Part shown: in pieces, positions 18,647 to 27,759 of the stretch
Layout of the letters: each line of letters starts with the position of its first letter
Position numbering within the stretch: position 1 is the stretch's first letter
Origin: Alloalcanivorax dieselolei B5
GTDB lineage: Bacteria > Pseudomonadota > Gammaproteobacteria > Pseudomonadales > Alcanivoracaceae
DNA: 64,000 nucleotides
NCBI RefSeq assembly: GCF_000300005.1
Contig: NC_018691.1
Location: 4,235,001 to 4,299,000 of the forward strand
Reading direction: 5' to 3'
Program-made: the position numbers and the translations under genes
The notes under the pieces: generated by a model
The model's input: only the letters and a program-made list of their open reading frames with translations
Told to the model about the DNA's origin: nothing
Database searches by the model: none

Positions 18647-18860
18647 CCCGTGGTTTCGTGGCGTCAAGAAACGCCGCCGGGCGAGGGAAAGCCCACCGGG
18701 TTGACTGCCATCGCCAACAGTGGCATGGCAGGCAGTAACGCGGTAAGGTCGAAGATTACACTATTGACGGGCTCCGGTTGGGCGGGGCCATGCTCAGGGA
18801 ACGCTCAGGGAACTGGGCTCCGAATAGCGAGTCGTGACTATGTTAAGGGAGTTGATCAAA

Positions 18861-19937
18861 ATGGCCACCGGGAAAAAAGCTAAAAAGAAAGCCATCGCCA
18901 AACCCAAGGCCGGTGCAGCCCGGACTTCCGCCGCCGCCAGCAAGAAAGCCGCGGTGAAAAAGGCAGCCACCGTCAATAAGAAGGCTGTAGCCAAAAAAGC
19001 CGCCCCCAAGAAAGCAGCGGCCAAGGCCGCGTCGAAGGTGGCGAAAAAAGTCACGACCACGAAAAAAGCCGCCAGCAAGCGACCCGCCAGCGCAAAGACC
19101 ACGGCCAAGGCAGCCCCTTCCCCTGGCAGCAAGAGCAAGGCCGCCAGCAAAAAGGCAACGGTCAGCAAAACCGCCAAGACCACCACCAAAGCAACGGCCA
19201 CGAAAGCCAAACCGAAGACTCAGGCGGCCCGGAAAGCTACCCCGGGCCCCGCTTCCTCCACTCGCAGCAAACAGGTGAAAAGCACGCCCAAAAGCAAATC
19301 GAGCGCCACAACCGCACCCCAATCCAAGGCTTCCGGCACCGCCAAGCGCGGGGCCAAGGCCAAGCCGGCTCCGGCCCAAGCGCCGGCCCGGAATACGACG
19401 ACGTCATCGGGAACCGCCAGGAAGGCTCCCGGCAGCCAGGAGCGCAGGCCGTCCCGTTCCTCTTCTTCAGTTCAGGTGAAATCGACGGTGAAAAAACCCG
19501 CAACAGCCGCCGACAAAGCGGACAATCTTATTCATGGAGTCACTCCCTATGTCGCCAAAGCAGGCGAGGAGTACATGAACGAAGCTCAGCGCGCCCATTT
19601 CCGTCAGGTTCTTCTGGCCTGGCGCCAGGAGTTGATGGAAGAAGCGGATCGCACCATGCACCACCTTCAGGACGAGGTGGCGAATCTGCCCGACCCCGCC
19701 GACCGGGCAACCCAGGAGGAAGAATTCGCATTGGAACTGCGCACCCGCGACCGCGAGCGCAAACTGCTGAAAAAGATCGAGAAAGCCCTCGATCAGATCG
19801 ACAAGGATGACTACGGCTACTGCGAGGCCTGCGGCATCGAGATCGGCATCCGCCGACTGGAGGCCCGTCCCACCGCGGAACTGTGCATCGATTGCAAGGA
19901 ACTCGCCGAGATCAAGGAAAGGCAGCTGGCGGGCTGA
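18861..19937 (+). CDS. dksA: RNA polymerase-binding factor DksA with a long Lys/Ala-rich histone H1-like N-terminal extension
   Basis: DksA enters the RNA polymerase secondary channel and mediates ppGpp responses. Residues from about 222 onward are a complete DksA: a coiled-coil tip with LPDPADRATQEEE (the functional acidic residues), and a four-cysteine zinc finger (CEAC and CIDC). Before it lie about 220 residues of low-complexity Lys/Ala/Ser/Thr/Pro sequence (KKAAVKKAATVNKKAVAKKA-type repeats), as in AlgP or histone H1-like proteins. E. coli DksA has only 151 residues. The frame is continuous and no convincing internal start precedes the core, so the extension appears to be translated. AAGGGAG lies ten bases before the ATG. 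gluQ follows. Confidence 0.93.
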   Translation: MATGKKAKKKAIAKPKAGAARTSAAASKKAAVKKAATVNKKAVAKKAAPKKAAAKAASKVAKKVTTTKKAASKRPASAKTTAKAAPSPGSKSKAASKKATVSKTAKTTTKATATKAKPKTQAARKATPGPASSTRSKQVKSTPKSKSSATTAPQSKASGTAKRGAKAKPAPAQAPARNTTTSSGTARKAPGSQERRPSRSSSSVQVKSTVKKPATAADKADNLIHGVTPYVAKAGEEYMNEAQRAHFRQVLLAWRQELMEEADRTMHHLQDEVANLPDPADRATQEEEFALELRTRDRERKLLKKIEKALDQIDKDDYGYCEACGIEIGIRRLEARPTAELCIDCKELAEIKERQLAG

Positions 19938-21052: not shown

Positions 21053-21229
21053 ATGTATACCGACCGACTACTGATTATTTTCATTTTAGGCACCTATTTG
21101 CTCTCCCCGGCCATCATCGGCTGGTGGAGCGAGGGTGGGCGCGGCTGGTATCGCCCCTACCTGATCTGGCTGGCCCTGATCGCTCTCAGCTACTGGATCG
21201 CCAAGAGCCGGGACGCGAATGACGTATAG
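21053..21229 (+). CDS. cbrX: Small membrane protein CbrX, overlapping cbrA
   Basis: A 58-residue reading frame starting MYTDRLLIIFILGTYLLSP, with two hydrophobic helices (about 5-22 and 36-50) separated by GWWSEGGRGWYRPY. Its last 11 bases overlap the cbrA start, so ribosomes finishing cbrX can re-initiate on cbrA. A short gene in this position, called cbrX, is known upstream of Pseudomonas cbrA and is thought to couple translation. The Trp/Tyr-rich loop looks like selected protein, not chance. Whether the peptide itself has a function is unknown. The start could be later, but no other ATG is available. Confidence 0.75.
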   Translation: MYTDRLLIIFILGTYLLSPAIIGWWSEGGRGWYRPYLIWLALIALSYWIAKSRDANDV

Positions 21230-24140
21230 TGTCAGCGAACTGATTCTGATCGCCTGTGGCTACCTGCTGTTTCTGTTCCTGGTGGCCTGGATCACCGAGC
21301 GAGGCTGGATCCCCTCACGTTGGGTTCGTCATCCGGTCGTTTACGTGCTGTCGCTGGGCGTCTATGCCAGTGCCTGGGCCATCTATGGTTCGGTGGGTTA
21401 CGCCTATCGTTACGGCTACAATTTTCTTGCCTATTTTCTCGGTATCTCCGGGGTGTTTTTGTTGGCGCCGATCCTGCTGGCGCCAATCCTGCGTCTGACC
21501 ACGACCTACCAGTTGGGCTCCCTGGCGGATCTGTTCGCTTTCCGTTATCGCAGCCGCCTGGCCGGGGCGCTGACCACGGTGATGATGGTGATCGGCATGC
21601 TGCCGTTGCTGTCACTGCAGTTAAAGGCCGTGGCGGAGTCGATCCAGATACTGACCGGGGATCCCGATCCCGCTTGGCTGGCATTCTGGTTCTGTCTGCT
21701 GATCACCCTGTTCGCCATTTTGTTCGGTGCACGCCATGCCACCGCCCGGGAACGGCATGAGGGGCTGGTCGTCGCCATCGCCACCGAATCGTTGATCAAA
21801 CTGGTGGCGTTCGTAGGGGTGGCTCTGCTCGGGCTGTTCGGCGTCTTTGGTGGTCTCGGCGGCTTGAACCAGTGGCTGGACGCCAATCCGGAGATGCTCA
21901 CTCGTCTTTACCAGCCTTTGCAGGACGGCACCTGGCACAGCCTGATCATGGCGTTCTTCGTCTCCGCGGTGGTGATGCCTCATATGTTCTACATGGCCTT
22001 CACCGAGAACCTCAATCCTCGAGCTCTGATCACCGCCAGTTGGGGACTGCCGCTGCTGTTTTTGATCATGGCGCTGTGTGTGCCGCTGATCCTGTGGTCC
22101 GCGCTCGCCATCGACGCGCCGACCATTCCGGATTATTTCGCTCTCGGCGTCGGCCGGGAGAACGGCCACGGCGCGGTGCTCGCCTATCTGGCCGGCCTGG
22201 CCGGCGCCAGTGGCATGTTGATCGTCGCCACGCTGGCGCTGTCCGGCATGTGTTTGAATCACCTGGTGCTGCCGGCCAGCCCCCTCAGTTCCGCCCAGGA
22301 TCTGTACCGCAATCTGCTATGGACCCGGCGGGTGCTGATCGCCGCCATTCTGGCGTTGGCCTTTTTATTCTACCGGCTCACCGGCCCCAACCATTCCCTG
22401 GTGGAACTGGGGGTGTTGTCGTTCGTCGCGACACTGCAATTCGTGCCCGGCCTGATCGGGGCGCTGTTCTGGCCATCGGGCAATCGCAGCGGGCTGTTCG
22501 CCGGCATGCTGGCAGGGTTCGTGATCTGGGCGGTAGCCCTGTTGTTCCCATTGATCACGCCGCACTGGCACGCCCAGGAAGTCCTGCAGTGGCTCGGCTG
22601 GCAGTATCCGGAAGGCGCTACCCAATGGCACCGGGTGGCGCTGGCGTCGGTGAGTCTCAATGGCCTGATCTATGCAGTGGTGTCGATCGTCACCCCCATG
22701 TCCCGGGCGGAACGGTCCGCCGCCGAGGCCTGCGCGGTGGACAGCCTGCGACGCCCGTACCGCTGGGAATTGAGCGCCCAGTCCGTGGACGATTTCATCG
22801 CGTCACTGAGCGGCCCGCTGGGGCCGGTAACCGCCGCCCGTGAAGTGGAGATGGCGCTGCGGGACCTGCGCCTGAAGTATACCGAGACCCGCCCCTACGC
22901 TCTGCGGCGGCTGCGCGATCAGTTGGAGACCAACCTGTCCGGCCTGCTCGGTCCCTCCGTCGCCCATCAACTGATGGATGAAAACGTGCCCTATCGGCCG
23001 CGCGAGGGTGAGGAATCCAGCGAGGATATTCGCTTTATCGAAACCCGTCTGGAAAAGTACCGGGATCGCCTTTCCGGTCTGGCGGCGGAACTGGACAGCC
23101 TGCGCCGTTTCCACCGGCAAACCCTGCTTGAATTGCCGATGGGGGTTATTTCCCTGGGCGCCGACGGCGAGATCATCGGCTGGAACCGGGCGGTGGAAAC
23201 CCTGACCGGCATCGAGGCGGAAGACACCATAGGCTCGCGCCTGGATCATCTGCCCTCTCCCTGGGGGGAACTGCTCACCGAGTTCAGCCGCGGCGAGGAC
23301 GCCCACGACCCCAAACGCAGTATCGAGGTCAACGGCCAGGCTCGCTGGCTGAGTCTGCACAAATCGCTGATCCGTGGCGCCGGCCCGTCCGAACAGGCCG
23401 GCGGCCTGGTGCTGGTGCTTGAGGACATTACCGATCTGCGCCATATGGAAGCGCATCTGGCACACAACGAGCGGCTGGCCTCCATCGGCCGCCTGGCCGC
23501 CGGGGTGGCCCATGAGATCGGTAATCCGGTTACCGCCATCGCCTGTCTCGCACAAAATCTGGAAGGCGACAGCATTGATGAGGAGCAGCGCCTCAGCGGA
23601 CGCCAGATCATGGAGCAGACCCGACGCATCACCCGCATCGTCGAATCACTGGTAACGTTCAGCCATTCCGGCGGCATGCGCGACGTGATTCATGGCCCGG
23701 TGCGGGTCTTCGACACCGCCGCCGAAGCCATCGCCCTGCTGCAGTTGGACCCGGACCGCCGCCAGCAACACTTCCGCAATCTCTGCGACCCGACCCATGA
23801 AGTGATGGGTGACCCGCAACGTTTGCTGCAGGTGTTCGTCAACCTGCTCAGTAACGCCTCGGACGCCAGCGAGGACGACGCCCCGATCACGGTCCGCAGC
23901 CGCCCCGAAGGCGAGAAGGTGCGTATCGAAGTCGAGGATCGCGGCCATGGCATACCGACGGAACTGCGCGATGCCCTGTTCGAACCCTTCGTCACCAGCA
24001 AACCGCCGGGCCGCGGTACGGGTCTGGGACTGGCGTTGGTTTACAGTATCATCGAAGACCATCAGGGGACGGTGCGCGTGGAGAGCCCAGTGGAGGGCGA
24101 CCAAGGCACCCGGTTTATCATCGACCTGCCCGCTTATTAG
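21219..24140 (+). CDS. cbrA: SLC5-type transporter/sensor histidine kinase CbrA
   Basis: Membrane sensor of carbon/nitrogen status that phosphorylates CbrB. The 973 residues comprise an SSS/SLC5 transporter-like domain of about 13 helices (1-500), and a STAC-like linker (about 510-600). Then come a PAS domain (about 640-750, LLELPMGVISLGADGEIIGWN) and a HisKA dimerisation helix with VAHEIGNP (phosphoacceptor H765). The HATPase has NLLSNASDAS, VEDRGHGIP and GTGLGLALVYSI. All kinase boxes are intact. The start ATG lies inside cbrX. The TAG stop uses TA from host DNA and G from the first base of an inserted element. Family knowledge links CbrA to histidine uptake and signalling. Confidence 0.93.
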   Translation: MTYSVSELILIACGYLLFLFLVAWITERGWIPSRWVRHPVVYVLSLGVYASAWAIYGSVGYAYRYGYNFLAYFLGISGVFLLAPILLAPILRLTTTYQLGSLADLFAFRYRSRLAGALTTVMMVIGMLPLLSLQLKAVAESIQILTGDPDPAWLAFWFCLLITLFAILFGARHATARERHEGLVVAIATESLIKLVAFVGVALLGLFGVFGGLGGLNQWLDANPEMLTRLYQPLQDGTWHSLIMAFFVSAVVMPHMFYMAFTENLNPRALITASWGLPLLFLIMALCVPLILWSALAIDAPTIPDYFALGVGRENGHGAVLAYLAGLAGASGMLIVATLALSGMCLNHLVLPASPLSSAQDLYRNLLWTRRVLIAAILALAFLFYRLTGPNHSLVELGVLSFVATLQFVPGLIGALFWPSGNRSGLFAGMLAGFVIWAVALLFPLITPHWHAQEVLQWLGWQYPEGATQWHRVALASVSLNGLIYAVVSIVTPMSRAERSAAEACAVDSLRRPYRWELSAQSVDDFIASLSGPLGPVTAAREVEMALRDLRLKYTETRPYALRRLRDQLETNLSGLLGPSVAHQLMDENVPYRPREGEESSEDIRFIETRLEKYRDRLSGLAAELDSLRRFHRQTLLELPMGVISLGADGEIIGWNRAVETLTGIEAEDTIGSRLDHLPSPWGELLTEFSRGEDAHDPKRSIEVNGQARWLSLHKSLIRGAGPSEQAGGLVLVLEDITDLRHMEAHLAHNERLASIGRLAAGVAHEIGNPVTAIACLAQNLEGDSIDEEQRLSGRQIMEQTRRITRIVESLVTFSHSGGMRDVIHGPVRVFDTAAEAIALLQLDPDRRQQHFRNLCDPTHEVMGDPQRLLQVFVNLLSNASDASEDDAPITVRSRPEGEKVRIEVEDRGHGIPTELRDALFEPFVTSKPPGRGTGLGLALVYSIIEDHQGTVRVESPVEGDQGTRFIIDLPAY

Positions 24141-24442: not shown

Positions 24443-25777
24443 ATGAGTCACATACTGATCGTGGAAGACGAGCCCGTGATTCGCGGCGCGCTACGCAAAC
24501 TGCTGGAGCGGCATGATCACTCCGTGACGGAGGCGGAATCCGTGGAGCAGGCCCTGGAGAAAAGCCTGCATCAGTACGACCTGATCATCAGCGATCTGCG
24601 ATTACCGGGGGAGCCGGGCACGGCCCTGATCGAACAAGCCAACCCGACGCCGGTGCTGATCATGACCAGTTACGCCAGTCTGCGTTCGGCGGTGGACGCC
24701 ATGCGCCAGGGCGCGGTGGACTACATTCCCAAACCGTTCGATCACGAGGAAATGCTGCTGGCCGTGGAGCGGGTGCTGAAGGAAGGCCGGCTCAATCGCG
24801 GCAACCAGGCACTGCGCCGTGATATGGAACGCAGCTATCCGGTCAACGCCATGGTCGGTGAGTGTCAGGCCATGCGCGAGCTCAAACACCGCATCGCCCG
24901 GGTGGCGCCCACTGATACCCCGGTGCTGATCCTTGGGGAAGCCGGCACCGGCAAGGAACTGACCGCCCGCTCCATTCATGAACACAGTGACCGGGCCGGC
25001 GGCCCCTTGATTACCGTGCACTGCGCCTCCCTGCCGAAAACACTGCAACTGGATGATCTGTTCGGCAACGATGGCCAGCCCGGCCGCATTGAAGAAGCGG
25101 AAGGCGGCACCTTGTTTCTGGACGAAGTGGGCGAACTGTCCGGAGAAGCGCAGAGCCGGCTGCTGACGCTGCTGGAGCAAGGCGAGATCCATCGTCAGGA
25201 CTCCCTGTCCACGCGCCGGGTGGACGTGCGCATCCTGGCCAGCAGTCAGACCGATCTGCCCACCCGGGTCACCGAGGGCGGATTCCGCCGTGACCTTTAT
25301 TACCGGCTTAACGTGATGGAACTGGAAGTGCCGCCATTGCGGGCCCGCGAGCAGGATATCGAGGACCTGGCCAGCGCCCTCCTGGCCCGTGGCAGCGAGA
25401 AACTGCGGCGGCAGAACCTGTTTTTCACTCAGGAAGCGCTGGAGGCGATGCGTGGTTACAGCTGGCCGGGCAATGTGCGGGAGTTGGAAAACGTCATCGA
25501 GCGGGCCGTGATTCTCTCCGAGGAGGAAGCCATAGGCCCCGGTCAACTGGGCCTGAATCCGGATCGCGCGCCGCAACGCACCACCCGTGCCAGCCGCGCC
25601 AGCCTGGATCCCTCCGAGGATCTGTCGCTGGAAGACTACTTCACCCGCTTTGTCCTGGAAAACCAGGACAGCATGACCGAGACCGAGTTGGCCAATAAGC
25701 TCGGCATCAGCCGCAAAAGCCTGTGGGAGCGCCGCCAGCGCCTGGGCATTCCCCGTCGCAAGGGCGGCCGGCGCTGA
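24443..25777 (+). CDS. cbrB: NtrC-family response regulator CbrB, lacking the GAFTGA loop
   Basis: Response regulator of 444 residues controlling carbon/nitrogen utilisation. The receiver has E8/D9, phosphoacceptor D51 (IISDLRLPG), T75 and K97. The AAA+ domain has Walker A GEAGTGKE (165-172), Walker B GGTLFLDE (221-228) and FRRDLYYRL. The C-terminal HTH is TETELANKLGISRKSLWERR, strongly CbrB-like. Between DLFG (205-208) and EAEGG (218-222) the sequence is NDGQPGRIE; the usual HEKGAFTGA sigma54-contact loop is absent with no frameshift. Regulators of this family without GAFTGA generally act on sigma70 promoters, so CbrB here may have changed mode. AAGGAAGG precedes the ATG. Confidence 0.92.
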   Translation: MSHILIVEDEPVIRGALRKLLERHDHSVTEAESVEQALEKSLHQYDLIISDLRLPGEPGTALIEQANPTPVLIMTSYASLRSAVDAMRQGAVDYIPKPFDHEEMLLAVERVLKEGRLNRGNQALRRDMERSYPVNAMVGECQAMRELKHRIARVAPTDTPVLILGEAGTGKELTARSIHEHSDRAGGPLITVHCASLPKTLQLDDLFGNDGQPGRIEEAEGGTLFLDEVGELSGEAQSRLLTLLEQGEIHRQDSLSTRRVDVRILASSQTDLPTRVTEGGFRRDLYYRLNVMELEVPPLRAREQDIEDLASALLARGSEKLRRQNLFFTQEALEAMRGYSWPGNVRELENVIERAVILSEEEAIGPGQLGLNPDRAPQRTTRASRASLDPSEDLSLEDYFTRFVLENQDSMTETELANKLGISRKSLWERRQRLGIPRRKGGRR

Positions 25778-25909
25778 GAGCCTGGTCCATGGAAAGCGGG
25801 TTCACTCGCGAATAGCGTGTCGTGTGTCAGCGATTATCCCATCTTTCTTTGCCAGAAACGGCTTGTGGGACCCTCCTTGTTACTCCCTCAGTCGCATTCA
25901 ACGACCAAG

Positions 25910-25949
25910 TGTTACCTTACTACACAGGGCGGGTAACAAGAACGTTACC
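25910..25949 (+). promoter_or_regulatory. Three TGTTAC-type half-sites, candidate CbrB operator
   Basis: TGTTAC at 25910-25915 and GTAACA at 25933-25938 face each other across 17 bases. A third site, GTTACC at 25944-25949, pairs with GGGTAAC at 25931-25937 as a 7-base perfect inverted repeat. Pseudomonas CbrB recognises TGTTAC-N14-GTAACA-type sites with several subsites upstream of crcZ. The spacing here differs, so the assignment is by resemblance. Confidence 0.6.
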
Positions 25950-26002
25950 CCACACCCCCACCTTTGGAACTGCTTTTTCATGTTTTTTGTAAGTTGCTGA
26001 TT

Positions 26003-26008
26003 TATAAG
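26003..26008 (+). promoter_or_regulatory. Candidate sigma70 -10 of the CrcZ-like RNA
   Basis: TATAAG (5 of 6) lies 54 bases after the last half-site, without a good -35, as expected for an activator-dependent sigma70 promoter. No sequence upstream has both GG at -24 and GC at -12. Confidence 0.35.
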
Positions 26009-26014
26009 GATTTA

Positions 26015-26253
26015 ACATGCTATTGCAAAGGAAAATCCATCCATGCACTATGAATCCCACGCCAGATAAACAAAACAACCAAGGCGGCAAGGCTCAAATA
26101 AGAACAAGAAAAGAAGAACAAAAAGTGGACGAGCCAAACGAGAGAAATGCCGTAACACCATGTGCGTACGGCGCAAGGCAGAAAACAACACAAACAATAA
26201 CAACAACAGAATCAGCGCATAGGGCATCACAACCAAGGTTGTGGTGCCTTTTT
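26015..26253 (+). ncRNA. crcZ: CrcZ-like Hfq/Crc-sequestering small RNA
   Basis: The cbrB-pcnB gap, where Pseudomonas encodes CrcZ, holds a sequence with clusters of A-rich AANAANAA motifs: around 26067-26081, 26094-26124 and 26181-26211 (for example AACAATAACAACAACAG). It ends in a strong intrinsic terminator. CrcZ titrates Hfq/Crc through such motifs and so relieves catabolite repression. The A-rich tracts contrast sharply with the GC-rich surroundings, and reading frames through them give only low-complexity Lys/Asn/Gln peptides. The 5' end is uncertain (about 25990-26020). The terminator fixes the strand and 3' end. At about 240 nt it would be shorter than CrcZ of P. aeruginosa. Confidence 0.78.
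26223..26253 (+). terminator. Intrinsic terminator of the CrcZ-like RNA
   Basis: GGCATCACAACC and GGTTGTGGTGCC pair over 12 positions (one G-U) around a two-base AA centre, directly followed by TTTTT. This is the strongest terminator in the region. Confidence 0.92.
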
Positions 26254-26373
26254 ACTTTTAAACGCCCAGCTTGCCTTCCATCTCTTTCCGTTGCAAGGCG
26301 CCGATCAATAACCTGTGGCGCGAAAAAGGTGCTACCATGCCGCCTTTCATTCAGTTAGGACGATAATCGCTCA

Positions 26374-27759
26374 ATGGCGTCAAAGCTTCTGGAGAAACTG
26401 ACCCGCCTTATTCAGTTTGGTTCCCCACGTACGCCCCGCCTTCCCAAGGCCAAGGTGATTCCCCGCGACGCCCACCCTATTTCCCGTAAACAGGTGTCCC
26501 GGGCCGCGCTCAATGTACTCTACGGACTGCATAAGGCCGGGTTCGAAGCCTATCTGGTCGGGGGATGCCTGCGGGATCTGCTATGCGGGCGGCAACCCAA
26601 GGATTTCGACGTGGTTACCGACGCCACCCCGGAGCAGGTCTACCGGCTGTTCAAGCGCAGCCGCATCATCGGCCGCCGTTTCCAGATCGTGCACGTGCGT
26701 TTCGGTGGCGAGGTCATCGAAGTGTCCACCTTCCGCGCGTTCCAGCGGGATGATGATCTGGATGACGATCAGCACCGGGCCCATGAGGAAACCGGCCTGG
26801 TGCTGCGAGACAACACCTGGGGCAACATTGAGGAAGACGCGCTGCGCCGCGACTTCACCATCAACGCCCTCTATTACAATATCGCCGATTTCGCCCTGTA
26901 TGATTTCGTCAACAGCCGGCAGGACATCGAGCGCGGCATCATCCGGTTGATCGGAGATCCTCAGCAACGCTATCGCGAGGATCCGGTACGCATGCTGCGC
27001 GCCGCCCGCTTCGCCGCCAAACTGGGCTTTCAGCTGGATCGCGCCACCCGGGCGCCCATTCCTGAGATGGCGTCGCTGTTACTGCAGGTTCCGCCCGCCC
27101 GCCTGTTCGACGAAGTGCTCAAGCTGTTCCTCAGCGGTCATGCCCGGGATTCCTTTGAACAGCTGCGGAAGCTGGGTTTGTTTGCCTTTTTGTTCCCCAA
27201 CACCCACGAAGCGTTGGAAAGTGAGCAGGGAGAAGTCTGGGAACGGCTGATCCTGGCCGCCATGGACAACACCGACCGGCGCCTGTCCGAGAACAAGCCG
27301 GTTACCCCGGCCTTCCTTTACGCGGTGTTTCTGTGGCCGGTGCTGGTCACACAATTGAATCGCTATCGCGAGGATGGCATTCCGCCAGCGCCGGCCTTGC
27401 ATAAAGCCGCCACCTGGGCTCTTAACGAGCAAAGCCATCACACCTCGGTGCCTCGCCGCTTCTCCTCGGTGATGCGCGAAATGTGGGACCTGCAGCCGCG
27501 CCTGGACAAACGCAATGGCAAGCGGGCGGATACCCTGATGGAGCACCCCCGCTTCCGTGCCGCTTACGACTTCCTTCTGCTGCGCGAACAGGCCGGTGAA
27601 ATCAAACCCGGACTGGGAGAATGGTGGACCCGCTATCAAGCCGCCGACGAGTCCCAGCAACGCGCCATGGTTCAGGATCTGGGCCAGCCCGACCGCCAAG
27701 GCGGCCGGCGGCGTCGGCGGCGCCGTCGCAGCGGGGGCGGAGGCGACAGCGAAGCATGA
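26374..27759 (+). CDS. pcnB: Poly(A) polymerase I
   Basis: Adds poly(A) tails that promote RNA decay. The 461-residue class II nucleotidyltransferase has the GGCLRDLL and KDFDVVTDATPEQV active-site region, the EDALRRDFTINALYYN segment and the PVRMLRAARFAAKLGF neck. Its basic C-terminal tail is rich in Arg/Gly (RQGGRRRRRRRRSGGGG), as in PcnB rather than CCA-adding enzyme. AGGA lies about a dozen bases before the ATG. Its stop overlaps folK (ATGA). Being immediately downstream of the CrcZ-like RNA matches Pseudomonas. Confidence 0.95.
   Translation: MASKLLEKLTRLIQFGSPRTPRLPKAKVIPRDAHPISRKQVSRAALNVLYGLHKAGFEAYLVGGCLRDLLCGRQPKDFDVVTDATPEQVYRLFKRSRIIGRRFQIVHVRFGGEVIEVSTFRAFQRDDDLDDDQHRAHEETGLVLRDNTWGNIEEDALRRDFTINALYYNIADFALYDFVNSRQDIERGIIRLIGDPQQRYREDPVRMLRAARFAAKLGFQLDRATRAPIPEMASLLLQVPPARLFDEVLKLFLSGHARDSFEQLRKLGLFAFLFPNTHEALESEQGEVWERLILAAMDNTDRRLSENKPVTPAFLYAVFLWPVLVTQLNRYREDGIPPAPALHKAATWALNEQSHHTSVPRRFSSVMREMWDLQPRLDKRNGKRADTLMEHPRFRAAYDFLLLREQAGEIKPGLGEWWTRYQAADESQQRAMVQDLGQPDRQGGRRRRRRRRSGGGGDSEA

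Follow-up and report, generated by a model that had tools for sequence, protein, structure and literature searches.

Organization of the cbrB-pcnB Region

The window analysed here, a DNA stretch of 64,000 nucleotides, is part of a genome of 4,928,223 bases in a single contig (G000). Three of its forward-strand genes are of concern. The first, cbrA (21219-24140), named by its position beside cbrB, encodes a sensor kinase of 973 amino acids with PAS, HisKA and HATPase_c domains. It is followed by cbrB (24443-25777), the product of which is an NtrC-type response regulator with a receiver and an AAA+ sigma-54 activation domain, the Walker A motif being GEAGTGKE. The GAFTGA loop of sigma-54 enhancer-binding proteins is missing from this CbrB, in which the loop is shortened near residues 207-220 (about 25061-25102). 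The third gene, pcnB (26374-27759), was assigned to poly(A) polymerase by gene family match. At 18834-19937 the window also encodes a DksA protein that is extended at its N-terminus by more than 200 residues rich in Ala and Lys, so that its match to DksA begins at residue 233.

The intergenic gap between cbrB and pcnB, estimated at roughly 600 bases in the first-pass annotation of this DNA, measures 596 nt and is the position of the CrcZ gene in Pseudomonas. Most likely, judging from its sequence, it encodes an RNA of about 200 nt starting near 26059, since a conserved predicted promoter (TTGCAA at 26023-26028 and CACTAT at 26046-26051) would direct the start there. The covariance model of the RNA matches 26059-26259 of the forward strand (175 bits), with a predicted start at about A26059. 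The first-pass annotation had a longer RNA, about 240 nt, starting at 25990; that base is instead the first of a conserved IHF-like site (25990-26002) upstream of the promoter.

The clustering of motifs described at first pass is well above chance. Overlapping starts of AANAANAA number 10 in the gap, whereas dinucleotide shuffles average 1.0 and reach 10 in 0 of 2000 cases, and this part of the gap is the densest 200-nt stretch for the motif in the whole window on both strands. Nine of the ten starts fall in two forward-strand blocks, 26097-26124 with AANAANAA motifs and 26193-26206 with AACAATAACAACAA, which are predicted to be unpaired (0.97 and 0.99, respectively); several AANAANAA (CA) motifs would thus be single-stranded in the RNA, as is characteristic of CrcZ. 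An A-rich loop separates the arms of helix 2 (GGCTC at 26091-26095 and GAGCC at 26131-26135), which is 99.5% paired across the alignment with little variation. For helix 1 the paired fraction is 86.6%; it hardly covaries and is missing from the minimum-energy fold.

Toward the 3' end lies the near-invariant block AGAATCAGCGCA (26208-26219). In the family alignment ATCAGCGCA is identical in all 42 sequences and AATCAGCGCA in 41 of the 42, and the A-rich stretch adjoining AGAATCAGCGCA on the 3' side of the RNA is also strongly kept. The intrinsic terminator (26221-26250), a 13-pair stem-loop followed by a T-run, corresponds to the stem with a U-run seen at first pass; it is conserved and covarying in the family, 7 of 12 pairs having changed at both positions. 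The evidence for it is this conservation, because a terminator scan by itself found one against 2.2 expected in shuffles. An open frame of eight codons (MHYESHAR) spans the -10 region; its ATG overlaps the spacer predicted there, and the locus alignment shows no conserved ribosome site for it.

Conservation of the RNA and Its Relation to CrcZ

The family of the window was taken, by inference, to be Alcanivoracaceae, and 46 family genomes were among those compared. The DNA core 25907-26258 is present in all 13 genomes of the genus, and in the more distant of them no longer stretch was recovered; in one (G007) the contig ends inside the core, before the terminator. A pattern scan of named genomes gave 42 stretches, some of which are unrelated chance matches, and the matches include Alloalcanivorax xenomutans, balearicus, venustensis and others of the genus as well as Alcanivorax jadensis, nanhaiticus and others of a sister genus. 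The RNA was aligned from ACGCC to the T-run in 42 sequences of eight genera, two truncated loci and one duplicate being omitted from the 45. The covariance model matches 45 of the 46 family genomes, the only miss being a genome that is 64% complete. In 44 of these it matches a single place, and in the remaining one (G045) two pieces on two contigs. Outside the family nothing convincing was matched by the model (best match 36 bits). A conserved RNA does, then, occupy the CrcZ slot outside Pseudomonas, as proposed at first pass, and its motifs and terminator persist in related genomes.

The first-pass annotation had also warned that covariance searches may miss the RNA. Indeed, the Rfam CrcZ model RF01675 (gathering cut-off 95 bits) has no match in the window or anywhere in the genome, and in a sister genus (g8) it scores about 19-21 bits (best 20.8). 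Among 114 relatives it exceeds the cut-off in four; when E values up to 1 are admitted, it weakly matches 31 of them, and 4 of 14 unrelated controls as well. All of Rfam at gathering thresholds gives zero matches in the gap, and the matches at E up to 10 (CyaR at 18.7 bits and others) were dismissed as chance level. With such RF01675 scores, the case for homology to CrcZ is made by synteny and the control sites. The RNA is a distant relative of CrcZ to judge from its position, its CbrB-type and IHF-like sites, its A-rich motifs and its terminator.

Promoter and Upstream Control Sites

Upstream of the RNA the forward strand carries CbrB-type subsites TGTTAC and GTAACA, as at CrcZ, the TGTTAC subsite being that described in PMC6296734. 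The forward subsite is part of TGTTACCTTACTACACA (25910-25926), a motif with one exact occurrence in the genome; a reverse subsite, GTAACA, matching that of PMC6296734, is located at 25933-25938, and a third subsite-like sequence, GTTACC, at 25944-25949. The extended upstream motif was found once each in 30 of the 57 genomes searched, every one a family member, and the reversed motif, used as a control, turned up a single time in a single genome. Expression of P. putida crcZ is described as being under IHF and sigma-54 control (PMC6296734). Here, between the CbrB-type sites and the promoter, there is an IHF-like site by sequence match, AATCAGCAACTTA, on the reverse strand (25990-26002), which agrees with the consensus at 8 of 9 bases and precedes the -35 box by 33 nt. 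It begins 32-33 nt upstream of -35 in 43 of the 45 family loci.

The predicted -35 and -10 boxes, separated by a spacer of 17, were recognized by conservation. The pattern TTGCNN-N17-CANNAT (TTGC-N19-CA-N2-AT) occurs at one place upstream of the RNA in each of the 45 family gaps, as compared to 36 of 9000 shuffled segments. In the eight genera compared, the spacer averages 53%, while no variation is seen at the four fixed positions of the -10 box or at five of the six positions of the -35 box. Both boxes are weak relative to consensus, and a generic promoter scan found no promoter here. From TGTTACC to -35 the distance is 112-114 nt in 40 of the 45 loci and 101-102 nt in the other five, a difference of one helical turn.

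The sigma-54 promoter (GG-N10-GC) that characterizes CrcZ is absent from the window locus, and the site TGGCAC-N5-TGC was found in 0 of 45 family loci (43 complete gaps and two cut by contig ends). One looser match, 13.0 of 15.5, lies 270 nt upstream of -35 in G001. The sigma-54-like TTGGAACTGCTTTTTC near 25963-25979 of the window was rejected, as it is not conserved in the genus; it scores 11.5 of 15.5 and the shuffle mean is 10.8.

CbrB and the Sigma-54 Site across the Order

The loss of GAFTGA extends to CbrB of all 45 family loci, by deletion in some genera and by GAFEGA, GAFAGA or DALPGA in others. The first-pass annotation had noticed changes in CbrB and read them as the sign of a different genus. 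The changes are real; they turn out to be a loss of the loop that contacts sigma-54, and this alters the means by which the RNA can be turned on. Loss of sigma-54 itself was rejected as a cause, rpoN being still present in all 13 genus genomes and in 110 of the 114 relatives. In a midpoint-rooted FastTree tree of 105 CbrB proteins, built with the loop columns included, all 45 sequences of the family group together in a single clade (support 1.0), and the next branch is G070 (0.91), which has GAFTGA, the sigma-54 site and Crc. The simplest reading of the sequences is that the loop was lost by one change in the family ancestor, and therefore the 45 loci would count as one event, not 45.

For comparison across the order, 107 cbrB loci from 114 genomes were examined. 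Left out were G026 (64% complete), which lacks an ortholog-grade CbrB locus, and six outgroups with weaker CbrB matches only (G063, G069, G081, G086, G097 and G108). The 17 loci lacking a complete gap above 100 nt stand outside the two-by-two comparison of GAFTGA and sigma-54 site. Among the 47 complete gaps outside the family both features are kept in 43 and both are missing in two (G095, G103); the remaining two have GAFTGA only, G051 with a promoter one base off and G062 with a gap of 186 nt. Most non-family gaps carry TGGCA[CT]-N5-N[TC]GC followed by A-rich motifs, and most of the families sampled in the order have sigma-54-type CrcZ-like loci in the slot, so the RNA of the window is no isolated case.

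An IHF-like site is located 32 nt upstream of TGGCA in 20 of 50 sigma-54-type loci. As this spacing matches the 32-33 nt of the family, the family -35 box sits where -24 sits elsewhere. In the sigma-54 types the distance from TGTTACC clusters near 91-94, 102-103, 112-113, 121-125, 131-134 and 143-145, which looks like helical phasing, in a descriptive sense only as the loci share ancestry. In three outgroup loci (L096 of G095, L148 of G103 and L145 of G084) GAFTGA is lost and no sigma-54-type CrcZ was seen downstream; these seem to be further losses in which the RNA is gone too.

Hfq, Crc and the rpoH 3' UTR

The first-pass annotation expected the RNA to sequester Hfq/Crc as in Pseudomonas. 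An hfq gene was found in 28 of the 29 family genomes searched. No Crc gene was found in any of the 46 family genomes (best matches at most 48 bits), which leaves Crc sequestration unsupported. The query was the pyrE-adjacent protein of G105 (its neighbour named pyrE by eye), and by counts made by eye 31 of the 46 show a match with E of 1e-5 or below, these being weak and, where compared, belonging to the ExoIII gene. Outside the family, 56 of 68 genomes have matches of at least 149 bits, three fall in between and nine are without such a match. The absence of a Crc homologue from Alcanivorax is already in print, being stated in the text of PMC9788540.

Two outgroups (G110 and G078) have a sigma-54-type CrcZ-like locus and no Crc match. 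Loss of Crc is thus not confined to the family, a strict tie of Crc loss to the promoter change is ruled out, and CrcZ may occur without Crc beyond Alcanivoracaceae as well.

In the three of 46 family genomes in which Hfq residues were compared (L256, L259 and L260, the hfq loci of G000, G018 and G016) the protein reads VSIFLVNG. We take its Phe to correspond to Tyr25 of E. coli Hfq, a residue of the distal site, to which A-rich RNA binds.

Just downstream of rpoH, in L026 (G000:C1:239748-242798), there is a U-rich near-complement of the 3' block of the RNA, with the ends TGCGCTGATT and TTTTCTGCC. The predicted duplex between the RNA and the rpoH 3' UTR has -53.4 kcal/mol, as compared to -29.1 (sd 4.0) in shuffles. 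Of the 30 rpoH loci examined, the 4 that carry the complement belong to a single species group, and from its sequence the complement is a possible sponge for the RNA. A second gene copy of the CrcY kind at G000:C1:241248-241298 was considered and rejected, as the A-rich match there is antisense to the rpoH 3' UTR.

A Candidate Decoy RNA under an Apparently Rebuilt Promoter

We consider it probable that the gap encodes a CrcZ-type decoy RNA which is activated by CbrB through sigma-70 and titrates Hfq without Crc. CbrB would bind at TGTTAC/GTAACA, some 113 nt ahead of -35, IHF would bend the DNA between these sites and the promoter, and sigma-70 RNA polymerase would start near 26059 from TTGCAA-N17-CACTAT. 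On this reading CbrB lost its sigma-54 contact loop in the family ancestor, and a former -24 box (TGGCAC) seems to have turned into the -35 box (TTGCAA) without changing place. The single-stranded A-rich stretches would be offered to the distal face of Hfq and, by occupying it, would free A-rich mRNAs once the preferred carbon source runs out. Since Crc is absent, the decoy would act on Hfq alone. We infer in this way that the RNA is transcribed, that sigma-70 serves it, that CbrB activates rather than represses it, and that it binds Hfq and is under carbon control.

A broader history can be put forward tentatively, and we hold it to be nearly as likely as its opposite. The circuit as a whole may have been rewired in place in the Alcanivoracaceae ancestor: CbrB gave up contact with sigma-54, TGGCAC at -24 was converted into the sigma-70 -35 box TTGCAA with its distance from the IHF-like site preserved, and, Crc having gone, the RNA became a Crc-independent Hfq decoy. 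The xenomutans-dieselolei group would then have gained the rpoH 3' UTR complement able to sponge the RNA.

Several observations count against the main reading: the weak -35 and -10 boxes, missed by the generic promoter scan; helix 1, which is missing from the minimum-energy fold and hardly covaries; the silence of RF01675 in this genome; the Phe in the distal site of Hfq in the three genomes compared; and the near-invariance of AGAATCAGCGCA, which is superfluous for a pure Hfq decoy. The last of these suits an RNA that acts mainly by base pairing through AGAATCAGCGCA and its flanks, the A-rich stretches only recruiting Hfq as a chaperone. The identity of ATCAGCGCA and AATCAGCGCA across the alignment and the rpoH near-complement of four close species, with its strong predicted duplex, speak for such pairing; however, the 3' A-rich stretch beside the block is strongly kept too, the rpoH complement is found in few of the rpoH loci, and we regard this mode of action as unlikely. 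It is somewhat less likely still that CbrB without GAFTGA represses the RNA, or does not control it, and that the promoter is a plain sigma-70 one. TyrR is also a repressor. HupR, TyrR and DhaR, all lacking GAFTGA, act at sigma-70 promoters (PMC3162934), yet sites more than 100 nt upstream, an IHF-like site in between and a fixed helical phase make up the layout of an activator, and weak -35 and -10 boxes are as found at activated promoters.

The reading of the first-pass annotation, an ordinary CrcZ with a sigma-54 promoter and Hfq/Crc sequestration, draws on the same slot, A-rich motifs and terminator and could point to TTGGAACTGCTTTTTC. It has become very improbable, as TTGGAACTGCTTTTTC is unconserved in the genus and scores close to shuffles, CbrB is without GAFTGA and there is no Crc. 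That no separate RNA exists, the locus between two same-strand genes being a pcnB leader or cbrB tail with chance A-rich sequence, is hardly credible, given a conserved promoter of its own, a terminator before pcnB and a covariance model that holds in nearly all family genomes while the gap flanks diverge.

Comparison with Known Systems

The literature searched on Alcanivorax together with CbrB, Crc or Hfq yielded only PMC9788540 of weight, and that searched on CrcZ in Marinobacter or other genera nothing useful. The dRNA-seq study of A. dieselolei B-5 in PMC9788540 reports 549 candidates; its main text names no RNA here, and the transcript may stand unnamed in its supplementary tables. A 2022 review (PMC8871633) describes CbrAB, in the relevant passage, as unique to Pseudomonadaceae. 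This is contradicted by the loci found across the order, as CbrB and the CrcZ-like RNA extend to most of its sampled families.

With CrcZ of Pseudomonas (RF01675) the RNA shares the cbrB-pcnB slot, TGTTAC/GTAACA sites, IHF-like site, clustered A-rich motifs and terminator before pcnB. It differs in being about 200 nt long, as compared to about 400 for CrcZ, with a conserved body of its own, and in lacking a -24/-12 promoter, GAFTGA in CbrB and Crc; RF01675 is blind to it in this genome. CrcY is encoded elsewhere in the genome from CrcZ, and A-rich motifs have a role in its decoy function. CrcY of P. putida and A. vinelandii is likewise an A-rich decoy RNA under CbrB (PMC6296734), but it is a second RNA beside CrcZ, whereas one place per genome is the rule in the matched family genomes.

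The carbon-preference RNA of Pseudomonas is thus also encoded in oil-eating marine bacteria, where its on-switch appears rebuilt and one protein partner is missing. The family offers a genome-wide test of CrcZ function once Crc is gone, in model oil-degrading bacteria, and a natural case of an activator and a promoter changing sigma class together. TyrR, DhaR and HupR are the closest parallels to the latter: they too are NtrC-type AAA+ proteins that have lost sigma-54 contact, and their GAFTGA changes go with sigma-70 dependence (PMC3162934). In Alcanivoracaceae, unlike in these, the loss is family-wide (45 of 45 loci) and is paired with the loss of the -24/-12 promoter at a linked target.
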